A stretch of DNA of 64,000 bases from Micromonospora sp. WMMD1082 (GTDB taxonomy: Bacteria > Actinomycetota > Actinomycetes > Mycobacteriales > Micromonosporaceae). The notes beneath the pieces were generated by a model. That model did not search any database. It was not told where the DNA came from and saw only the letters and a list, made by a program, of their open reading frames with translations. The stretch is taken from positions 1,426,001 to 1,490,000 of the forward strand of contig NZ_JARUBM010000002.1 in assembly GCF_029626175.1 (NCBI RefSeq), read 5' to 3'. A program made the translations under genes and the position numbers. Below are positions 26,244 through 35,981 of this stretch, piece after piece; the first letter of the stretch is position 1; each line of letters opens with the position of its first letter.

Positions 26244-26298
26244 GGTCCTGGCGGCGGCGCGCTGACGCTATGCTCGGGATCCTCTACAGAGGAGCATG

Positions 26299-27051
26299 AT
26301 GCGCGCCGCCTTCTTCTTCCGTGGCAACGTGTGGTTGACCGGGCTGTCGGGGCTGGCGCTCGGCGTGCTGGTCGGCGTGGCCGTATTCGCCGCGGGTCAG
26401 TTGACCGGGTGGCGGCTGGCGGCGCTCGTCGGTGGGTTCGTCGGTCTGGTGCTCGCGCCGATCTTCCGCGCCTACTCGGCGGCCGGCGTGGAAGTTCGGG
26501 ACATCAAGGTGCGGGTTCCGCAGCTCGGTGAGGCGTCCATCGTGCTCCAACAGGACACCCGTGCGCAGGCGTACCGGCTCTACGTCGAGCTGAGCAGCCG
26601 GGTGGCGACGACGCCCCTGCCACCCGGGACCGGCCTGGTGGAAGACGCCATGAAGTCCCTGTACGCGCTGTTCACGGTCACCCGTGAGGTGATCACCACC
26701 GCGCCCCCGGCCAAACGACGTCGGGGGCCGTCGGTGCTGGATCTGGGCCTGCGGATGCTCAACGTCGAGCTGAGGCCGTTCCTGTCCTACTGGTGGCCCA
26801 CCTTCGTGCGGTGGCGGGCGGCGCACCAGACCGCGATCGAGGACGAGTGGCCGGACAACGCTCGCTTCCGCGCCGAACTCGCCGCGCTTCAGCCCCGGAT
26901 GCGGGAGTTCATGCATGCCTTCGCCCGGCTGGCGGAGTTGAGCGACGAGCAGGTCACCATCACGTGGCCGCAGGACGTCGATCTTCCTGAGCAGCGCCGG
27001 CCCGCCGATGGCACCGCCCGACACCCGGACCGGTCGCAGGAGCAGCCGTAG
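26299..27051 (+). CDS. Two-TM protein with a C-terminal domain shared with the adjacent TIR-NTPase
   Basis: About 250 residues of no named family. Two membrane helices (LTGLSGLALGVLVGVAVFAA ~13-33 and WRLAALVGGFVGLVLAPIF ~38-57) precede a soluble domain of ~150 residues. Positions ~90-215 (RLYVELSSRVATTPL; ALFTVTREVI; LNVELRPFLSYWWPTF; FRAELAALQPRMREF) align with the last ~125 residues of the convergent TIR-NTPase. The end is polar and basic. The second of two adjacent ATGs is chosen, four bases after GAGGAG. A membrane-bound partner or anti-partner of the TIR protein is inferred. Confidence 0.8.
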   Translation: MRAAFFFRGNVWLTGLSGLALGVLVGVAVFAAGQLTGWRLAALVGGFVGLVLAPIFRAYSAAGVEVRDIKVRVPQLGEASIVLQQDTRAQAYRLYVELSSRVATTPLPPGTGLVEDAMKSLYALFTVTREVITTAPPAKRRRGPSVLDLGLRMLNVELRPFLSYWWPTFVRWRAAHQTAIEDEWPDNARFRAELAALQPRMREFMHAFARLAELSDEQVTITWPQDVDLPEQRRPADGTARHPDRSQEQP

Positions 27052-27067
27052 CCGGCACGTCGAGTCG

Positions 27068-28444
27068 TCACGGCGGGGCGTTGGTGCCGGACAGCCCGGC
27101 CAGCTGTTGCGCGGCCCGGGTCATCGGCTCACGGAGCGCGATCAGCTCGGTACGTAGCTGCGGCGCCATCGGCCACGCGCGCTCGTGCTGCCAGATCCCC
27201 ACCGGCGGGGTGCGCTGCTCCTCGTACGCCGCCAGTTCGGTGTGCCACCGGAGCAGGAACGGGCGCAGCACGTCGTTGAGCAACTCCACCGCGATGTTGT
27301 GGACGGCCGCCGCATCCGGGCCGTGCCGACGCAGCGTGGTCCTGGTCGTGTCGAACAGTTGGTGCAGCGAGTTGAGCGCCTCGCGGAGCAGACCCTCGCG
27401 TTCACCCAGGGACTGCACGCCAACCCGGGTGGTCAGCTCGATCTGCAGGTCGAAGGCTGCCGCCCGTTCGGCGGCGGACCCACGCGGCCCTGCGGGCAGC
27501 CCGCGTACCTGCGGCTCGTCAAGATCCATGACCGCCGCCACACCGGGGTAGCTTCCCCGGGTGGTGAGCACCGTCGCGGCCAGGCCGGATGGCGCGAACA
27601 GTCGACGTACGGCCTGGCAGGGAAGGTCGGCGGGCACGCCATCGACCACCCAGAGGCAGGGCAGTTCCCGACCGCGCAGCATGATCGCCAACCCGTTCAG
27701 GCAGTCGTCCAACGACAGCGCCGTGGGTACGCCCAGCGCGGCACAGACGGAGCGCAACTGGTCGGCGTACGCCCCCATCGGGTCGGCACGCCCGTCGAGG
27801 TCCATCCAGAAGACCCCACCCGGGAAGGCCGCGGCAAACCGGATGGCGTACTCCTCGACCAGGGTCGTCTTCCCGGTGCCCGGACCACCTCGCAGAATGA
27901 CCGTCGCCGGCCGGCCGCGACCGGTCAACAGCGGCGCCACGTGCGGATGCAACGCGCTGTGCAGCCGCCACAGATGCGGAATACGCCCGACGAAGTCCGG
28001 CGTCCCACTCCGCGGCGGGGCCGGCAGCCACAGGGCCGGCGTCAGCATCTCCACCCGGCCCATCGGAGTATCCAGCCGACGCACGTGCGCCGCCACCTTC
28101 GCCGCGAGAACGGCCGGTGCGGCTGAGGCCGGCCCCGCGAGCCCGTGCCGAGCGTCCCGCAGTTCCACGGGATGGATGTGCTCGGCGCCGGCCTCCGGGT
28201 TCACCACCAGCACCCGCCGGTACACATCGCCCTCGCGCTGACCCGCCAGATAGGCCGCCGTCAACTCCCACTGGCACGCCCGACGCCGTGGGTAGTACTC
28301 CGAGTAGACCGCCAACAACACGGACGAAGCGGCAAGCTCCCGGTTGATCGTGCGACTGATGCTGGCGAAGTCATCGACGACCGCCTCGTCTACGAATACC
28401 CGCAGGCCGCGATCCCGCAGGGCGGCCACGATCGGATCCGCCAC
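27068..28444 (-). CDS. TIR-domain STAND/NB-ARC-like NTPase, possibly phase-variable
   Basis: The frame is open to a TAG at the start of a heptamer tract (about 28555) and reads WDVFVSYARHDHA just inside, the first strand of a TIR domain. The only start codon in frame is the GTG at 28444, which removes that strand. Numbering from it: TIR to ~120 with the putative NADase Glu60 in RRRACQWELTAAYL; linker; P-loop ILRGGPGTGKTTLVEE (183-198); Walker B PCLWVVDGV; sensor TTR (294-296); and a C-terminal domain ~335-458 with LRPFLLRWHTEL, shared with the neighbouring membrane protein. There is no repeat sensor array. An ATG at 28593 would supply a full TIR only if the tract had 8 or 11 units instead of 10. 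Confidence 0.8.
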   Translation of the reverse strand: MADPIVAALRDRGLRVFVDEAVVDDFASISRTINRELAASSVLLAVYSEYYPRRRACQWELTAAYLAGQREGDVYRRVLVVNPEAGAEHIHPVELRDARHGLAGPASAAPAVLAAKVAAHVRRLDTPMGRVEMLTPALWLPAPPRSGTPDFVGRIPHLWRLHSALHPHVAPLLTGRGRPATVILRGGPGTGKTTLVEEYAIRFAAAFPGGVFWMDLDGRADPMGAYADQLRSVCAALGVPTALSLDDCLNGLAIMLRGRELPCLWVVDGVPADLPCQAVRRLFAPSGLAATVLTTRGSYPGVAAVMDLDEPQVRGLPAGPRGSAAERAAAFDLQIELTTRVGVQSLGEREGLLREALNSLHQLFDTTRTTLRRHGPDAAAVHNIAVELLNDVLRPFLLRWHTELAAYEEQRTPPVGIWQHERAWPMAPQLRTELIALREPMTRAAQQLAGLSGTNAPP

Positions 28445-28593
28445 CGCATGATCATGCCGGGCATAACTGACGAAGACGTCCCATCCCGGCTCCCGGCTCC
28501 CGGCTCCCGGCTCCCGGCTCCCGGCTCCCGGCTCCCGGCTCCCGGCTCCCGGCTATTTAACGATTGGGCTGCCGTTGTCGTTACCTGGTCCAT
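28390..28593 (-). CDS. Short ORF entering the heptamer tract (off-frame start of the TIR gene)
   Basis: The ATG at 28593, three bases after AAAAAGGG, begins MDQVTTTAAQSLNS and runs into (REPGAGS) units made by the 7-bp repeats, then leaves the TIR frame and stops at 28390 after 67 codons. Gain of one unit or loss of two would join this start to WDVFVSYARHDH. It is therefore listed as the probable native 5' end of the TIR gene in its OFF state, not as an independent gene. Confidence 0.5.
   Translation of the reverse strand: MDQVTTTAAQSLNSREPGAGSREPGAGSREPGAGSRDGTSSSVMPGMIMRWRIRSWPPCGIAACGYS
28484..28553. repeat. Ten perfect tandem copies of the heptamer TCCCGGC
   Basis: Ten uninterrupted 7-base units run from 28484 to 28553. 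The unit is not a multiple of three, so each gain or loss shifts the frame; three units encode AGSREPG on the minus strand. Such tracts mutate by slipped-strand pairing. The sequence immediately after (TATTTAACG) is abruptly AT-rich. Confidence 0.97.
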
Positions 28594-28780
28594 ATGCCCT
28601 TTTTGGTCACAATCACAGATCAGCGCGCAGCCCAAGCCGGCCACGCCGTGAGTGTATGCCCGGACCCAGGCTGGCCGGCACCGGAGCACCGGCAGGCGAC
28701 GACCGTGCCACCGGCGTACGAAGATAGTGGAGGAAGTCTCCGCGGAGCGTGTCGGAGAGGACAGCCAACGACGACAGGAG

Positions 28781-28816
28781 ATGAGCCCGGTGGCGCAGTA
28801 CTTCCTGGACGCATGA
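28781..28816 (+). CDS. 11-codon leader ORF overlapping the sigma factor start
   Basis: After ACAGGAG, an ATG at 28781 (or GTG at 28790, better spaced) opens MSPVAQYFLDA and stops with TGA overlapping the sigma factor ATG (ATGA at 28813-28816). VAQYFL resembles the start of YCII/DGPF-domain proteins, which normally pair with ECF42 sigma factors. So this may be a stub of that gene fused by deletion, or a leader that couples translation. No ribosome site exists for the sigma ATG itself. Confidence 0.45.
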   Translation: MSPVAQYFLDA

Positions 28817-30033
28817 CCGATCTCGACGAGGTGATCACCAGGGTCCACCGCGAGGAGTGGGCCCGGATGGTCGCGACCCTGGCCAGGCGATTCGGGGATC
28901 TCGACATCGCCGAGGAGATGACCGCCGAGGCGTTCGCGACCGCCATCGAGCGTTGGCCGGGCGACGGCGTCCCCCCGAATCCCGGCGCGTGGCTCACCAC
29001 CACCGCCCACCGCAAGGCCATCGACCGGCGCCGGCGCGAGGCCAGGCGCGAAGACAAGCACCGGGAGGCGCTGATGCTGTCCGGCACCTCCGAGCCGCTC
29101 GGCGCCATCGACGACGATCGGCTCCGTCTCGTCTTCACCTGCTGTCACCCCGCCCTCGCCGTCGAGGCACGGGTTGCGCTGACCCTGCGGTTGGTCGGCG
29201 GGCTCACCGTAGCCGAAATCGCCCACGCGTTCCTGGTGCAGGAGACCACCATGGGCCGGCGGATCACCCGGGCGAAGGCGAAGATCAAGGCGGCGAAGAT
29301 CCCCTACGGCGTACCGTTACGGGAGGATCTCCCGGCCCGGGTCACCGGGGTGCTCACCGTCCTCTATCTGATCTTCAACGAGGGCTACCTGGCCTCGAAC
29401 CCCGAGAAGGAGGCGGTCCGCGGCGACCTGACCGCCGAGGCGATCCGGCTGTCCAGGCTGCTCCGTGACCTGATGCCGGCGGACGGCGAGGTCGTCGGGC
29501 TCCTGGCGCTGATGCTCCTGACCGAGGCCCGCCGGGCCGCGCGGGTATCGGCGAGCGGTCAGCTCGTCACCCTCGATGAGCAGGATCGCGGCGCGTGGGA
29601 CCGCGAGCTGATCGCCGAGGGTCACGCCCTGGTCCGCGCGCGTCTCGCCTGCGGCCAGGCGCCGGGCCGCTACCAGATCCTCGCTGCGATCAACGCCCTG
29701 CACACCGACGCCCGCGACGTCCGCGCCACCGACTGGTCGCAGGTCATCGCGCTCTACGACCAGCTGATCCACGTCGACCCCTCGCCGGTCGTACGGCTCA
29801 ACCGGGCGATCGCGGTCGCCGAGTTCGACGGCCCGGAGGTCGCCCTGGCCGAGGTGGACGGTCTGCCACTGGAGGGCTACCACGCCTACCACGCCACCCG
29901 CGCCGAGCTGCTGCGCCGGCTGGGCCGCAGCGAGGAGTCGCGGGCGGCATACGACCGGGCCATCGGGCTGGCCGGCAACACCGCCGAGACCGCATATCTC
30001 ACCCGTCGGCGCGACCAGTTGTCCGGCCCGTGA
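28813..30033 (+). CDS. ECF42-type RNA polymerase sigma factor with TPR-like C-terminus
   Basis: A 406-residue sigma factor. Region 2 (ATLARRFGDLDIAEEMTAEA; NPGAWLTTTAHRKAIDRRRR) and region 4 (TLRLVGGLTVAEIAHAFLVQ; TTMGRRITRAKAKI) are followed by the ~230-residue helical DUF6596/TPR-like extension typical of ECF42 (VLYLIFNEGYLASNPEKEAV; LIHVDPSPVVRLNRAIAVAE). ECF42 factors lack an anti-sigma protein and pair with YCII-domain genes, which may supply the signal; only a stub of such a gene is visible upstream. Start chosen by the ATGA overlap with the leader ORF. Confidence 0.92.
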   Translation: MTDLDEVITRVHREEWARMVATLARRFGDLDIAEEMTAEAFATAIERWPGDGVPPNPGAWLTTTAHRKAIDRRRREARREDKHREALMLSGTSEPLGAIDDDRLRLVFTCCHPALAVEARVALTLRLVGGLTVAEIAHAFLVQETTMGRRITRAKAKIKAAKIPYGVPLREDLPARVTGVLTVLYLIFNEGYLASNPEKEAVRGDLTAEAIRLSRLLRDLMPADGEVVGLLALMLLTEARRAARVSASGQLVTLDEQDRGAWDRELIAEGHALVRARLACGQAPGRYQILAAINALHTDARDVRATDWSQVIALYDQLIHVDPSPVVRLNRAIAVAEFDGPEVALAEVDGLPLEGYHAYHATRAELLRRLGRSEESRAAYDRAIGLAGNTAETAYLTRRRDQLSGP

Positions 30034-30110
30034 TGCGCTCGCCGGCGTTCCTGCTCGAACGCCTGCTCCGGGCGGGGATGAGCGATGTTGTCGCAGTGGA
30101 ACCGGCGACG

Positions 30111-30547
30111 GGTGGCCTCGCGGCGCTGGCGGGCGTAGCCACCCCCGGGAGATGGGCGCCGAACGGTTCATCGCCACCCAGGATTCCGACCCGGCCGAGG
30201 CGCTCAGGGCCTGGGACGGCGGTGCCGACCTCGTCGTCAACGCCTCACCGTCCACCTCGGCCGCCGTGGCCACGCTCACCGGCCTGGCGCCCGACGGTTG
30301 GCTCGTGCTGTGCGGGTACGACCCCGAACCGCTGACCCTGTCCACCCAGCCGATGGTCCTCAACCGGCTGCACGTCATGGTCAACCCGTCCGGCTCCCCG
30401 CACGACCTGCGCGACACCCTCGCGTTCTCGGCGACGCACGGCATCGTGCCCGACTTCACGCCGATCGGTCTGCGCGACGCCAACGCGGCGCTCGACGCCA
30501 TGGCCAACGGCCGGGCCGCCAAGCGGTCGGTCATTGCCTTCGGCTGA
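30111..30547 (+). pseudogene. Zinc-type alcohol dehydrogenase, 5'-truncated and frameshifted
   Basis: From 30152 the frame reads MGAERFIATQDSDPAEALRA, then LVVNASPSTSAAVATLTGLA, DGWLVLCGYDPEPLTLSTQP and GRAAKRSVIAFG: the nucleotide-binding and C-terminal half of a CPxTP-type zinc alcohol dehydrogenase. Just upstream GGLAALAGVAT lies in another frame and reads like the glycine loop, joined by PREMGAERF after a shift. The N-terminal catalytic half with the zinc ligands is missing. A decaying gene; the intact 131-codon part is unlikely to be functional. Confidence 0.75.
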
Positions 30548-30630
30548 CCGCTCGGCTCTGGCCGTCACCACCCGGGTTCCGGACACACCCGCCGATCGCG
30601 ACCAGGGCGGACCGGAGAAGGTGCCGGGCC

Positions 30631-31458
30631 TCACGGCTTGCGCGCGACGAGTCCGACGAAGGTGTGGTAGGTGTCGCTCTGACTCGGCGCCGTCTCGCCC
30701 GGCTCCGGCCGCCACTCGGCCAGCGGCACCAGCCCCGGCTCCAGCACCTCCAGGCCTTCGACGAAGGAGAGAATCTCCTCATCGGTACGCCAGCGGCCGG
30801 TGCCGAGCGACTCGTTGAAGATGCGCTCGACCTCGCGCGCCTTACGGGACGCATCCGGCTGCCGCTCGCCGGGATCACGGAAGTGGGAGATCGCCACGTA
30901 GCTGCCGGACGGAAGCGCCTCGATCAGCTTCGCCGCCACCGCCTTCGGGTCCTCGTCGTCCCCGATGTGATGCAGAATCCCGAAGAGCAACAGCCCGATC
31001 GGGCGGCTGAAGTCCAGGAACTGGCGCACCTCCGCACCTTCCAGGATGACCTCCGGCGATCGGACGTCGGCCTGGATCACCGTCGCGGCGCCCTCGTGGG
31101 CCAGCAGCGCCCGCCCGTGCGCCAGCACGATGGGGTCGTTGTCGACGTAGACCACCCGCGCCTGCGGGTCGTGACGCGTGGCCACCTGGTGCACATTGCC
31201 CTGCGTGGGCAGACCCGAACCGAGATCGAGGAACTGGCCGATCTTCTGCTCCGCGGCGAGGAAGCGAACCACCCGACGCAGGAAGGCCCGGTTCGCCTGG
31301 GCGGCCTGCGGACCATCCGGCGTGATCTTGAGCGCATGCTCAGCCACGGTGCGGTCCACCGCGAAGTTGTCCTTGCCGCCGAGCATGAAGTCGTAGACCC
31401 GGGCAATGCTCGGCACGCTGACGTCGACCCCGGACGGTGCCGCCTCATTACTCGCCAC
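30631..31458 (-). CDS. SAM-dependent methyltransferase, DUF574 type
   Basis: A 275-residue protein of the actinomycete Methyltransf_19/DUF574 family. PSIARVYDFMLGGKDNFAVD is the diagnostic N-terminus; IGQFLDLGSGLPTQGNVHQV the SAM loop; RVVYVDNDPIVLAHGRALLA the acidic motif; and LLFGILHHIGDDEDPKAVAA a post-motif block. These are very numerous in actinomycetes and have no assigned substrate. GTG at 31458, after GAGGAGACG. Single-gene unit; 212 bases upstream are free of genes. Confidence 0.92.
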   Translation of the reverse strand: MASNEAAPSGVDVSVPSIARVYDFMLGGKDNFAVDRTVAEHALKITPDGPQAAQANRAFLRRVVRFLAAEQKIGQFLDLGSGLPTQGNVHQVATRHDPQARVVYVDNDPIVLAHGRALLAHEGAATVIQADVRSPEVILEGAEVRQFLDFSRPIGLLLFGILHHIGDDEDPKAVAAKLIEALPSGSYVAISHFRDPGERQPDASRKAREVERIFNESLGTGRWRTDEEILSFVEGLEVLEPGLVPLAEWRPEPGETAPSQSDTYHTFVGLVARKP

Positions 31459-31670
31459 AGTTCGTCTCCTCGTCCACACCGGATCACAGTCGGCCGAGCC
31501 GCTTGGTGGGCCGAGCGTCGGACTGAGTGTATCCACACGCCCGAACGTGTTCAGTCGGCGCTACCGCGAGCCGCATCGGTCCACGTACGACCGCCCAGGT
31601 CTTGATCGCGAGCATGGGAGGTCGAACGACGCCGAGCTGCCCACCGAGCGAAGCCACCCTGACCGGCGGC

Positions 31671-32453
31671 TCAACGCTCGGCCTCGCCGGCGTTCGGCCG
31701 GGTGCTGGCGATGAACGTGTCGAGCGCCGGCCCGTGCAGCACCCCGCCGGGCACCGGATCGCGCAGCGCCCGCGCCACCAGGCGCGCCACGGGCAGCCGG
31801 CGCGGGCGCGGCGCCGCGGCGAGCACCACGTTGCCGTACCGGCGGCCGCGCAGCATCCGCCGGTCGGCGACGACGCACACGTCGGCGAAGACCGCCCGCA
31901 GGGTGGCCGCCTGCACCCGAGCGAGGACCAGAGGCGGCAGGTCCGTGACGTTGACCAGGTAGATGCCGTCCGGTCGCAGCACCCGGGCGACCTCGGCGGC
32001 GAATGCCACGGTGGCCACGTGCGGCGGCATCCGGGCCGCCCGGTAGATGTCGGCGAGCACCAGGTCGTACGCGCTGGCGGGCGCGGCAAGAACGGCCTCC
32101 CGGGCGTCGGCGACATGCACCTTGACACCGGCCGGTCGGGGTGGCAGCTCGTGCGCCACCAGTTCGACCACGGCCGGATCCCGCTCGACCACCACCTGCG
32201 TCGAGCCGGGCCGGGTCGCGGCGACGTAGCGCGGCAGCGTCAGCGCACCGCCGCCGAGGTGCAGCACGTCCAGCGGATCACCGGCCGGCGCGGCGAAATC
32301 CGCCACGGCGGCCATCCGGCGGACGTACTCGAAGTGCAGGTACGTGGGATCAGCGACATCCACGTAGGACTGCTCGACGCCGCCGGCGAACAGCGTACGC
32401 CCGGTGGGCCGGGACGGATCGACGGCCAGCTCAAGGCGGTCGTCGGCGTCCAT
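31671..32453 (-). CDS. Spermidine-synthase-like protein (SAM-methyltransferase fold)
   Basis: A 260-residue Rossmann-fold protein. DVLHLGGGALTLPRYVAATR is the glycine motif, TQVVVERDPAVVELVAHELP the acidic loop, VKVHVADAREAVLAAPASAY and DLVLADIYRAARMPPHVATV the later motifs of spermidine synthase relatives (the YDLVLxDxY... block). The YDLVLADIY arrangement favours a 'fused/orphan spermidine synthase' group whose substrates are unknown; the classical polyamine-binding Asp pair cannot be confirmed. Lies downstream of the quinone reductase gene on the same strand, 86 bases away. Confidence 0.85.
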   Translation of the reverse strand: MDADDRLELAVDPSRPTGRTLFAGGVEQSYVDVADPTYLHFEYVRRMAAVADFAAPAGDPLDVLHLGGGALTLPRYVAATRPGSTQVVVERDPAVVELVAHELPPRPAGVKVHVADAREAVLAAPASAYDLVLADIYRAARMPPHVATVAFAAEVARVLRPDGIYLVNVTDLPPLVLARVQAATLRAVFADVCVVADRRMLRGRRYGNVVLAAAPRPRRLPVARLVARALRDPVPGGVLHGPALDTFIASTRPNAGEAER

Positions 32454-32539
32454 GAACAGGCAGGCTAACGGCGCCCACCCGCTGGCGTCTCGGCAACCAC
32501 CCCCACCGGGGCGTACGCGGGCATGACGCCGGTGGCGGG

Positions 32540-33457
32540 TTAGGGAACGATCACTACGCTGCCTCGCACGCCGCCCTGGGCCAGTCGCTTGTGGGCCGCC
32601 GCGGCGTCGGCGAAGGAGTACACCCCGGCGACCCGCAACGGGATGTCGCCGCTCTCGACCAGTTTCACCAGCTCGCCGAGCCGGGATCCGTCCGGCAGCA
32701 CCTCCAGGGCGAACGTCCGGATCCCCCGCACCGACGCTGGGCGCAGCGGGGGTGCGGCGGCCACGTAGCCACCGCCGTCGCTGACCAGTTCCATCAGTGA
32801 CGGGCCGATCAGCGCCAGGTCGACGGCCGCGTCGAAGGTGCCCGGTGTCACCGCGAGCGGACCGTCCGAGCGCGGCACGAACGCCGCGCCCTGCGACTCG
32901 ACGAACTCGCGGTCGCCGGCTCCCGCGATTCCGGTGGCGCGTAGACCGGCGACCCGGGCCAGGGCGAGGGTGAACCCGCCGACCTGCCCTGCGGCGCCGG
33001 CGACAAGCACGGTGGAGCCCGGCGGGAGCGCGAGCAGGTCGAGGGCCTGCGCGGCGGTGAGGCCGTTGGTCGGCAGAGTCGCGGCCTCGGTGGCGGGAAT
33101 CCCGGTGGGCGCCGCGGTCAGCCACTCGGCCGCCAAGACCACATACTCGGCGTGGGCACCGACCGTGGTGCGCAGCCAGTGCGAGAAGCCGATGACATCA
33201 TCACCGGTCCTGAAACCGGCGACGGACGGACCGACCGCGTCGACCGTGCCTGCCACATCCCAGCCGGGGATATACGGCAGCCCGGACGGCAGCGGTGCCG
33301 GGAATCGGCCGGCACGAATCATGAGGTCAACCGGGTGGACGACGGACGCGGCGAGGCGCACCCGCACCTGCCCCGGCCCCGGCTCGGGCACCGGCAGGTC
33401 CGCCACCACGTGCAACACCTCCGGCCCTCCGAACTCTGCATAGCTGACTGCGCGCAT
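32540..33457 (-). CDS. NADP-dependent quinone oxidoreductase (MDR superfamily)
   Basis: A 305-residue zinc-free medium-chain reductase. MRAVSYAEFGGPEVLHVVAD opens as in quinone oxidoreductases, ASVVHPVDLMIRAGRFPAPL is the substrate-side block, VAGAAGQVGGFTLALARVAG the AAGxVGxxxxxLA nucleotide motif. No zinc-ligand Cys set is present. The ATG at 33457 follows GGAGGAGGC. It is divergent from an HxlR gene with the same operator as the 25 kb locus, so quinone-stress control is likely. Confidence 0.93.
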   Translation of the reverse strand: MRAVSYAEFGGPEVLHVVADLPVPEPGPGQVRVRLAASVVHPVDLMIRAGRFPAPLPSGLPYIPGWDVAGTVDAVGPSVAGFRTGDDVIGFSHWLRTTVGAHAEYVVLAAEWLTAAPTGIPATEAATLPTNGLTAAQALDLLALPPGSTVLVAGAAGQVGGFTLALARVAGLRATGIAGAGDREFVESQGAAFVPRSDGPLAVTPGTFDAAVDLALIGPSLMELVSDGGGYVAAAPPLRPASVRGIRTFALEVLPDGSRLGELVKLVESGDIPLRVAGVYSFADAAAAHKRLAQGGVRGSVVIVP

Positions 33458-33497
33458 TGCCGCCTCCTCCGCTGAATGTCGTGGTCTCTCTGGACGG

Positions 33498-33544
33498 TAG
33501 GTACCATTGGGCACTGCGAGAAAGTAGGTACCTCAAAGTGCCTA
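33498..33544. promoter_or_regulatory. HxlR operator, copy 2 (palindrome plus half-site)
   Basis: TAGGTACCTCAAAGTGCCTA at 33525-33544 is a 20-bp imperfect palindrome: 14 of 20 positions match its own reverse complement and the six others are transitions. A second TAGGTACC lies at 33498-33505, 27 bases earlier. Both are between the divergent quinone reductase and hxlR genes. The same sequence recurs at 25297-25316. Confidence 0.7.
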
Positions 33545-33568
33545 GGGCACCGGCAAAGGTGGTGGGAC

Positions 33569-33967
33569 GTGGCGACAACGACCGCTGGGCAACGACGTGA
33601 GCAGGCGAAACGCGACTATGACGCGTTTCTGGCGGCCTGCCCGACACGGGAGTTGTTGAGCACGCTCACCGACAAATGGGCGGCGCTGGTGATCGCGGCG
33701 CTCGCCGACGGCCCGCAGCGGCACAGCGAACTCGCCCGCCGCATCGCCGGCGTCAGTCAGAAGATGCTCACCCAAACGCTGCGCAAGCTGGAACGCGATG
33801 GCCTGCTCACCCGCACGGTGACCGCGTCGGTGCCCGCCCGCGTCGACTACGCGCTCACCCCACTCGGTGGCGATCTGCTCCCGGTGATGGTCGCGATCAA
33901 GACCTGGGCGGAGGCGCACATGGATCGCGTCTTCACGGCTCGCGCTCAGTTCGACGCACGACCATGA
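33569..33967 (+). CDS. HxlR-family regulator (second copy)
   Basis: A 132-residue HxlR protein: AACPTRELLSTLTDKWAALV is the Cys...DKW signature, RHSELARRIAGVSQKMLTQT the recognition region, and LERDGLLTRTVTASVPARVD the wing. The recognition segments RIxGVSQKMLTQTLRxLERD match the 25 kb HxlR protein almost exactly, consistent with the shared operator. GTG at 33569 (GGTGG upstream) gives the usual length; the open frame extends upstream across the operator and is rejected. Confidence 0.9.
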   Translation: MATTTAGQRREQAKRDYDAFLAACPTRELLSTLTDKWAALVIAALADGPQRHSELARRIAGVSQKMLTQTLRKLERDGLLTRTVTASVPARVDYALTPLGGDLLPVMVAIKTWAEAHMDRVFTARAQFDARP

Positions 33968-34165
33968 GAACCACGGGACGACTGTCCTCAGCAGCGCCGC
34001 CCGCAACGTCGCCGTCGAGGGACGCGTTGACGACCGCTTGCGCCAGCAGTTGCAGACCGTCTCGGCCACTGCGGCCAGAAGGGACCGCTGCTACGGCCGG
34101 CGCAACCCGCACGCCCGACGGAACCAAAACGGCCCCTGGCTCTGTAGAAGGTGCTTACGAGCAGA

Positions 34166-35053
34166 ATGAACGGCATGCCAGTCATCAACGCCGTCCTCGG
34201 TGACATCACGACGCAGGACGTCGATGCCATCGTCAACGCGGCGAACAAGGCTATGCGTGGAGGAGGCGGTGTGGATGGCGCCGTCCATCGCAGCGGCGGC
34301 CCGGCGATCTTGCGTGACTGCATCGCCCGGTTTCCGAACGGCCTCGCCACCGGCGACGCCGGCTGGACGACGGCAGGTGATCTGCCCGCCCGGTGGGTCA
34401 TCCACACCGTCGGCCCCAACTACAGCACCGGGCAGCGTGACCGCTCCCTGCTGGAGGGGTGCTACCGGCGCGCGCTGGAGGTCGCCGACGAACTCGGCGC
34501 GCGCAGCATCGCGTTTCCGCTGATCAGCACGGGATCCTACGGCTGGCCACGTGCCGATGCCATCGCGGCGGCGATCGAGACCATCGCGGCGGCCAGGACC
34601 CGCGTCGACGAGGTACGGCTCGTCGCATTCGACGAAGCCGTACACAAGCAGATCCGTTCGGTGCTCTGGGCCCAATGTCCGCCGCCCGTCGGCTCAGGCA
34701 CGGTGGGCTGCTTGTTCGAACGCGAGCCGATCCAGTTCGGCCTACGTGGCGATTCCTACCTGTGGCGGGAACTTCGCGCGCGGTTCGCGAACATGCCGCT
34801 GCCAGACGACTGGCTCACCCTGCGGACGCTCATCACCCACGTCATCGAGCAGGTCGTTGGCGAGCCTCTCACCAACCGCGAATCCACACCGTGGCACGAC
34901 AGCACCGCAGCGATATACCTCCCCGAGTTCGACCCAGGCCACGGCATGTCCGCCGGCACCGTTCACCTTCCGTGGTGGGCACACACGGGAGTGCCGATCT
35001 TGCTGGACCGGTACGCCGCGCTACGCGGATCCGACGCACTCCCCGATCAGTGA
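34166..35053 (+). CDS. Macro-domain protein with an extra C-terminal domain
   Basis: About 295 residues. The first ~170 are a MacroD-type domain: INAVLGDITTQDVDAIVNAA, then NKAMRGGGGVDGAVHRSGGP and the ISTGSYGWPRADA loop, i.e. the ADP-ribose binding set of O-acetyl-ADP-ribose deacetylases. From ~175 a separate ~120-residue region follows (VGCLFEREPIQFGLRGDSYL; DDWLTLRTLITHVIEQVVGE; GMSAGTVHLPWWAHTGVPIL) of no recognised family. Macro domains hydrolyse ADP-ribose adducts or bind NAD-derived signals. The ATG at 34166 is chosen; 34175 is possible. No operon partner. Confidence 0.85.
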   Translation: MNGMPVINAVLGDITTQDVDAIVNAANKAMRGGGGVDGAVHRSGGPAILRDCIARFPNGLATGDAGWTTAGDLPARWVIHTVGPNYSTGQRDRSLLEGCYRRALEVADELGARSIAFPLISTGSYGWPRADAIAAAIETIAAARTRVDEVRLVAFDEAVHKQIRSVLWAQCPPPVGSGTVGCLFEREPIQFGLRGDSYLWRELRARFANMPLPDDWLTLRTLITHVIEQVVGEPLTNRESTPWHDSTAAIYLPEFDPGHGMSAGTVHLPWWAHTGVPILLDRYAALRGSDALPDQ

Positions 35054-35164
35054 GCACCGCTCGGAGCCGCGACCCGGAAGCCAGCCGGCGCAGAGTGCGC
35101 ACCAGCGACGCTCGCTCGGCGGCATGAGCGGGCGCTTCGCCACGCCGATCACCGTTGGCTGCGG

Positions 35165-35818
35165 CTACGCGGGAAACAGCCTCCAGTGCCCCTCGGAGAC
35201 GACCTCGACGGTACCGTCGAGCACCTTGATGGCCGTCTGGTCGTCGATTGCGTACGCCGGAACCGCGATCTCGGCCGCCCATCTCTCGGCACCTGCCATG
35301 GTGTTGTCCGGCTCGAGACCCAGGTGCGGGAAGATCGAGAAGTCGACGAGCCCCAGTGTGCGGTCGTCGGGCGCGGACTGCCACTCGACGAAGTCCGCAC
35401 CGATCCGTGGGGTCAGCACCATGCTCCCAGCACTCAACCCCACCCAGACGGTGTCCCACAGCGACGGCAGGAGGTCCGCCAGCCCGGACTGCCGCATCCA
35501 GTGGCACAGATACGTCGCATCGCCGCCGGCCACGAGCATGACGTCAGCCTCCCGGACCCAGGGGACCCACTGCTCCTCGCCGATGCTGGGCAGCGCTGTC
35601 AGCTCGAGGACGCCCAGCGACTTCCAGCCCAGGTCGCACATGGGTAGCGGCGTCTGACCGGTGATGAAGCGCCAGGCCGAGGCTGGCCCGCCCATGGGGT
35701 AGCACGCCGTAGGGATGCAGAGGGCGCTGGAGTCGGCGATCGGCTTGCCCAGCAGGTCGACCAGCGCACCGCGGATGCTCGGGTTCTGGACACCCGCGGA
35801 TGTGAGAAGAAGCTTCAC
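35165..35818 (-). CDS. Peptidase S51/dipeptidase E-like protein (class I amidotransferase fold)
   Basis: A 217-residue protein. KLLLTSAGVQNPSIRGALVD, the nucleotide-like loop ADVMLVAGGDATYLCHWMRQ and the nucleophile elbow WVGLSAGSMVLTPRIGADFV (Ser in GLSAGS) are those of peptidase S51 (PepE/cyanophycinase) relatives; LGLVDFSIFPHLG holds the expected His. PepE cleaves Asp-X dipeptides; the specificity here is unknown. GTG at 35818 with AGGAGG seven bases upstream. Isolated gene in a variable region. Confidence 0.88.
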   Translation of the reverse strand: MKLLLTSAGVQNPSIRGALVDLLGKPIADSSALCIPTACYPMGGPASAWRFITGQTPLPMCDLGWKSLGVLELTALPSIGEEQWVPWVREADVMLVAGGDATYLCHWMRQSGLADLLPSLWDTVWVGLSAGSMVLTPRIGADFVEWQSAPDDRTLGLVDFSIFPHLGLEPDNTMAGAERWAAEIAVPAYAIDDQTAIKVLDGTVEVVSEGHWRLFPA

Positions 35819-35981
35819 GCTTGCCTCCTGTACGTAGCGGTCATGACGCTCCGCCCGAGAGTCGGGAGATCGGTGCACGGGAATTCAGACTGGACACCAT
35901 AACGAAACTCATCGCCGTTGCGACCCCTCAAGCCCCCCGCACGCACATCGGCTAGATCCGGAAGCCCGCTATCCTCCGCCG

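Follow-up and report, generated by a model that had tools for sequence, protein, structure and literature searches.

A heptanucleotide tract at the 5' end of a TIR/NB-ARC-like gene in Micromonospora sp. WMMD1082 as a candidate phase switch

Introduction

Phase variation driven by repeats is known best from the surface genes of pathogens. In contingency genes of the Haemophilus type (e.g., modA), a non-triplet unit in the 5' part of the frame turns the gene ON or OFF by slippage; the units are usually shorter than the heptanucleotide described here, the genes are surface or methyltransferase genes, and their switching is proven. The locus that we analyzed likewise has a non-triplet tract in the 5' part of a gene that is intact downstream.

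An actinomycete defense gene with a repeat tract inside its reading frame is found in the Pgl system of Streptomyces coelicolor, where, according to the accessible part of the source, the G tract of pglX switches, with Pgl+ cells becoming Pgl- at 10^-2 to 10^-3 and reverting at 10^-3 to 10^-4 (PMC4365076). Our locus resembles Pgl in these two respects as far as that part describes them (PMC4365076), but Pgl has a homopolymeric G tract, a methyltransferase, and a multigene system, whereas here a 7-nt unit lies 5' of a TIR/NB-ARC-like gene and switching is a proposal. The tract gene encodes a TIR protein and not the PglX-type methyltransferase of Pgl/BREX, and the comparison with Pgl is therefore one of mechanism only.

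Heptameric repeats are overrepresented in bacteria, and in Xanthomonas and Nostoc those rich in G form quadruplexes, as described in the accessible part of PMC4692102. The tract studied here shares with them the G3-N4 pattern and, judging from one homologous protein, probably the length variation between close species, and it differs in that the repeats covered in that part are mostly intergenic, with no frame switch described (PMC4692102). Our search of the open-license literature, including that on Streptomyces heptamer repeats, found no report of a repeat-switched TIR protein; the accessible part of PMC12118408 holds no phase-variable TIR (its one mention of "TIR domain" is in the reference list), and that of PMC12817950 holds no heptanucleotide case.

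Results

A perfect heptanucleotide tract precedes a TIR/NB-ARC-like gene

The window is a stretch of 64,000 nucleotides from Micromonospora sp. WMMD1082, and the features discussed below are collected in Table 1. A sequence-only reading of this DNA had reported ten perfect TCCCGGC units ahead of a TIR gene, and TRF bore this out: the tract was recovered with a period of 7, 10.1 copies, 100% matches, and a score of 142, its ten full units occupying positions 28484 to 28553 between a minus-strand ATG and the TIR/NB-ARC-like gene. A single TRF row in the window scored higher (154, an imperfect 42-nt array), and the remaining rows with 100% matches had at most 2.2 copies each. When we scanned for exact repeats (period 5 to 12, at least four copies), the TCCCGGC tract was the sole match in the window. 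The same scan of a 400-kb sample of the genome returned one other tract, CGCCCCG in 8.7 copies, which lies directly 3' of the stop of a coding-like frame (L231 17327-17387, G000:C2:7147327-7147387). We also considered the TIR tract as a dispersed repeat of its own genome and rejected this, since all eight matches of a three-unit probe to the 7.44-Mb genome were overlapping registers of the TIR tract, the sole tract of its unit there.

TABLE 1 Positions of the features discussed in the text (window coordinates except for the last line)
Feature	Position	Strand	Basis or remark
Convergent neighbor, hydrophobic N terminus (by eye), C-terminal domain as in TIR protein	26296..27051	+	32%, E 1e-13
Open TIR/NB-ARC-like frame including tract-coded linker	27068..28552	-	471 residues from TIR tryptophan at 28483
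C-terminal helical domain, also in convergent neighbor	27089..27466	-	
P-loop NTPase part	27725..27994	-	AAA_16 below cutoff; NB-ARC-like in model
TIR domain (TIR_2, residues 3-109 counted from tryptophan)	28157..28477	-	Pfam, structure model
ATG frame with ten units: leader and tract, out of frame thereafter	28390..28593	-	stop 28392-28390
GTG, first in-frame start codon of TIR frame	28442..28444	-	
Heptanucleotide tract, ten full units, sense strand GGGAGCC	28484..28554	-	TRF + sequence
TAG closing TIR frame at tract edge	28553..28555	-	
Junction 8-mer TCGTTAAA adjoining tract; also at second gene-linked tract (L179)	28556..28563	-	
TAA closing third frame beside tract	28557..28559	-	
Candidate leader ATG (MDQVTTTAAQSLNS...)	28591..28593	-	sequence
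Divergent sigma-factor gene (Sigma70_r2, Sigma70_r4_2, DUF6596)	28813..30033	+	neighbor only
Second tract gene	G000:C2:6882656-6884600 (L179 957-2901); also L211, L210		

The unit number sets the reading frame

On the minus strand, AAAAAGGGCAT is followed by the candidate leader ATG, nine codons, TCGTTAAA, one T, the tract, and TGG GAC GTC, with which the first strand of the TIR domain begins. Because three 7-nt units equal seven codons, all frames through the tract read REPGAGS, in rotated form. The ATG had been described as having a ribosome-site-like sequence, and this held in part: ATG and AAAAAGGG (28604-28597, minus) are both present, but AAAAAGGG is just three bases from the ATG, which makes it a weak, short-spaced site.

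With ten units, the computed distance from the ATG to the tryptophan codon is 110 nt, so that the ATG frame misses the TIR domain and ends at 28390, and translation of the frames agreed with the sequence-only reading on this point. It agreed also on the TIR frame, which across the tract edge reads K-stop-PGAGS...REPGWDVFVSYARHDH and is without a start codon between that TAG and the GTG at 28444. The GTG lies 13 codons past the first TIR residue, and we rejected it as the start of the protein, because a protein starting there would lack the first TIR strand (strand 24-30 in the model). In the third frame, a TAA stands beside the tract; these stops may be due to chance in an AT-rich stretch. We then computed the frame for unit numbers 5 to 14 and found the leader in frame with the TIR domain only at 5, 8, 11, and 14, so the earlier count, by which 8 or 11 units fuse the two and 9 or 10 do not, is arithmetically exact. 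Assuming the candidate leader ATG, the unit number determines whether the product is full length or truncated.

We think it probable, though by no means assured, that the TIR tract is a slipped-strand phase switch (a simple-sequence-repeat contingency locus) that is OFF in the assembly. Slippage would add or remove 7-nt units between the short leader and the TIR/NB-ARC-like immune protein; one unit number in three would join the leader to the TIR domain and yield the full protein with a disordered REPGAGS linker, and the other two phases would end at stops. The assembled genome, with its ten units, would represent the OFF phase. The switch is supported by the tract-bearing counterpart in WMMD1076, the second gene-linked tract of the genome, and the actinomycete family with 7- or 8-nt tracts, all described below; the weak ribosome site, the unaligned WMMD1076 leader, and the mostly intergenic tracts of the genus speak against it. 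Slippage and its rate, use of the ATG, and selection for switching are what we infer.

The encoded protein is TIR/NB-ARC-like

The label of a TIR-NTPase, given from the letters and translations, proved apt: Pfam placed TIR_2 above and AAA_16 below its cutoff, and the domains of the structure model matched TIR and NB-ARC structures, while the rows shown of the structure comparison barely covered the C-terminal helical domain. The glutamate of the CQWELT motif, which we take to be the TIR glutamate with a catalytic role, was invariant in 14 of 14 aligned sequences. PADLOC gave partial, weak matches only, the best to PDC-S66 (29.7 bits over 76 residues) and the next to a ThsB-type model (16.9 bits). 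TIR-NB-ARC (NLR-type) proteins, such as Streptomyces P0009 (52% identical over 68% of the query), have the TIR domain and, judging from the model, the NB-ARC-like domain in common with it. P0009, P0011, and P0012, however, have a stretch between the NTPase and the C-terminal domain that is missing in the 471-residue WMMD1082 protein, which in contrast to TIR-NB-ARC proteins is without a recognized repeat-type sensor and has the tract at its N terminus. From the folds and the conserved glutamate, the protein when ON would be predicted to cleave NAD or to signal in phage defense; NAD consumption, cell suicide, and bet-hedging, as first suggested, are roles that it may have.

A counterpart in WMMD1076 carries the tract in frame

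The protein search scored 302 matches, of which 120 were listed, and the homolog counts given here refer to those 120. The closest among the matches listed was P0001 of Micromonospora sp. WMMD1076, 83% identical over 470 residues with no gap; together with the coding-like GC3 of the TIR frame (0.85), this indicates that the TIR gene is no old wreck. P0001 contains six copies of EPGAGSR plus EP, then I, then WDVF, so that its tract ends one codon before the TIR domain and in frame. The proteins are alike in tract, 3' junction, and phase and differ in length, the REPGAGS-type run being 44 residues in P0001 and 23 in WMMD1082 (a comparison of proteins, with one homolog). The P0001 tract would measure 132 nt, or about 19 units, if its codons are like those of WMMD1082. 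Upstream of the tract, the P0001 frame runs for 88 residues to the annotated start, with no methionine nearer, and these 88 residues matched the three window frames no better than shuffles did (133, 194, and 336 of 500).

Homologs might have begun at the equivalent of the GTG, with the first TIR strand missing. They do not: a first strand like WDVFxSY is present in 115 of the 120 listed, preceded by a median of 10 residues. None of the other 119 listed homologs contained an exact peptide repeat of at least 14 residues, from which we conclude that the tract arose in the Micromonospora lineage, at the place of the ordinary start region. Both known tract-bearing TIR copies, those of WMMD1082 and WMMD1076, keep the tract. 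The gene is rare, being found in 3 of 160 genus genomes at E values up to 1e-20 and in 4 of 354 family genomes at E values up to 1e-50 (own genome included in both counts); the two other genus matches were 35 to 42% identical over roughly the first 310 to 390 residues. A DNA pattern of tract plus TIR had no matches, a pattern search of contigs returned 143 stretches, none of them a relative, and the WMMD1076 gene was in none of the 160 genus and 354 family genomes. A viral carrier of the tract gene was rejected, as none of the 22 pattern stretches in viral contigs was a relative.

A second gene of the same genome has a tract at its 5' end

By following REPGAGS proteins into another family, unrelated to the TIR gene, we reached a second gene-linked tract in the WMMD1082 genome (G000:C2:6882656-6882992), where 48 GAGCCCG copies stand directly before a conserved N terminus. 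Its leader, GTG ACC TCG TTA AAG AGC, enters the tract in frame with the gene, and the other two frames have stops that begin 4 and 27 nt ahead of the tract. The same TCGTTAAA adjoins both gene-linked tracts, and the codon phase of TCG TTA AA is alike in the two leaders, which show no clear likeness beyond this 8-mer. The second gene was found in 3 of 160 genus genomes (E values up to 1e-80). In one of these (G025, a sister species), the ortholog has the same leader and 36.9 copies, with the GTG out of frame and a TAA in the gene frame 27 nt ahead of the tract; in another (G026), the contig starts inside the tract. The genes of WMMD1082 and G025 form what by their sequences is a cross-species pair, one in frame and one out of frame, with the architecture proposed for the TIR gene.

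Alternative explanations of the tract

The heptamer of the TIR tract is in the genus mainly an intergenic satellite, and its presence alone therefore proves nothing. GAGCCGG tracts of at least five units occurred in 12 of 160 genus genomes, the own genome included (11 of the 159 others). Thirteen of the 15 tracts from these 11 other genomes lie outside coding-like frames (GC3 test), and eight of the 15 adjoin an AAGATC edge, which mostly belongs to an intergenic repeat. That the genus tracts are mostly intergenic is the strongest evidence against a special role of the TIR tract, and it favors an explanation in which a neutral satellite grew at the 5' end, eliminated the former start codon, and silenced the gene, with no selected switching. 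We nevertheless judge this explanation unlikely. Two species, with a difference of 17% between their proteins, keep the tract at the same codon position and have an intact and gap-free downstream part, and in WMMD1076 the tract is in frame; that of WMMD1082 is also the only such tract in its own genome, and its edge is TCGTTAAA and not AAGATC, as at the second gene-linked tract. In a 464-kb sample of the own genome, TCGTTAAA occurred once, at the TIR tract. As a separate observation, the AAGATC(T)-edged intergenic GAGCCGG tracts (L013, L015, L020, L021, L023, L035, L133, and L136) mostly have as their edge a dispersed GATCTTGGTAC-type repeat, of which the WMMD1082 genome has seven copies (at most one mismatch).

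The tract could also be untranslated and regulatory, part of a 5' UTR or promoter in which the unit number tunes transcription or translation, with TCGTTAAA as a possible -10-like element or with G-rich repeats forming quadruplexes, and the protein would then start elsewhere. The G3-N4 repeats do fit quadruplex motifs, similar G-rich heptamers lie mostly between genes and fold in Xanthomonas and Nostoc, as far as the accessible part of PMC4692102 goes, and a GTG stands directly after the tract of the second gene, where a start is possible. At the TIR tract itself, by contrast, we found no sigma-70-like promoter, no intrinsic terminator, and no unusual RNA folding (z -0.78, a score that leaves quadruplexes out), and the TIR frame offers no start between the TAG and a GTG that would cost the protein its first strand. 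In WMMD1076, moreover, the tract belongs to the annotated reading frame, and we regard a regulatory tract as quite improbable.

It is very doubtful that the assembled unit number is wrong and the gene always in frame in the living strain: tandem arrays are error prone, but this genome is in two contigs with a completeness of 100, and common reads are longer than a 71-nt tract. Least credible is normal expression of ten units by ribosomal frameshifting within the repeat, for although both frames are open across the tract and one -1 step would join them, no classical slippery heptamer was seen by eye in the GGGAGCC repeats.

The TIR locus lies in a strain-variable stretch

The left flank of the locus is common to all five relatives taken and ends at the stop of an NmrA-like gene (26243/26244). 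In one of the five, a second match, to 35143-35930, follows after about 6 kb. By this comparison, the TIR locus lies within a stretch that varies between strains (window 26244-35142). In a separate comparison, the sigma-factor gene had a different neighborhood in 5 of 5 relatives taken, including one on a contig of just 6 kb. The convergent neighbor, with which the TIR protein has its C-terminal domain in common, is for that reason a possible partner of it. The family of this neighbor occurs in 13 of 160 genus genomes, the own included (E values up to 1e-5), and no TIR gene lay within the flanks fetched for its 12 other genus loci (about 6 kb at most; L095 and L096 are cut by contig ends).

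Seven- and eight-nucleotide tracts recur at one codon position in an actinomycete family

Tracts of similar period were found in relatives of the second tract gene, the family of protein P0129 in Streptomyces and other actinomycetes (loci L138, L159-L164, L166-L197, and L199-L208), for which 51 loci were given and 48 were usable for a frame test. Counting tracts of at least three copies, 34 of the usable loci have a 7-nt unit, three an 8-nt unit, one a 6-nt unit, and one a 10-nt unit, and nine are without a tract; the unit is thus of 7 or 8 nt in 37 of 39 tract-bearing loci. The tract sits at a single internal position, between H-G-x-G-Y-(N/T)-K and F-G-L-S, and the unit sequences vary (ACACCGG, CCGGGAG, GAAACCG, ACAGGAA, GGTCGCC, GAAGCCGG, and others). 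Selection for frame switching would be expected to leave such a pattern, a conserved non-triplet period combined with a free sequence.

Across the 37 loci with 7- or 8-nt units, the two halves of the gene are in one frame in 24; the other 13 are out of frame, and in all of them the frame of the N-terminal half contains a stop. All nine tract-free loci are in one frame. Nine of these 13 out-of-frame loci come from genomes with at least 20 contigs; the genomes of the other four (G606, G689, G751, and G766) have no more than three contigs, and draft assembly therefore does not explain all of them. The loci were picked by protein score, which favors in-frame copies, so the ratio of 13 to 37 is no rate. 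Source names in the family are UDP-N-acetylglucosamine 2-epimerase and CDP-glycerol glycerophosphotransferase, and four members had no Pfam match; from the names and the sequence, we read it as a putative GT-B-like envelope transferase. These loci make the family a strong candidate for a phase-variable gene family in Streptomyces. A protein that by eye is similar to the family, P0144 of Actinopolyspora lacussalsi, has a leader with a methionine and, near its N terminus, a REPGAGS run of 32 residues; its order of leader, tract, and body is that of the TIR gene.

Discussion

In this soil actinomycete, the gene proposed to be switched belongs to the bacterial relatives of NLR-type immune receptors. 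A wider possibility, which we hold tentatively and with slightly less than even confidence, is that actinomycetes have a general heptanucleotide "phasome," in which the period (7 or 8 nt) is selected and the sequence is free. It would switch genes for an NLR-like TIR protein and for envelope-type transferases, that is, bet-hedged, phage-facing functions, with a shared junction of TCGTTAAA plus tract in Micromonospora. The P0129 family makes the idea testable, as it offers many species with long 7- or 8-nt tracts at one codon position, and alleles both in frame and out of frame are already visible in public genomes. If phase switching of the TIR gene is true, only some cells of a clone would keep this costly, suicide-type immunity ON, and defense inventories drawn from single assemblies would miss genes that are momentarily out of frame.
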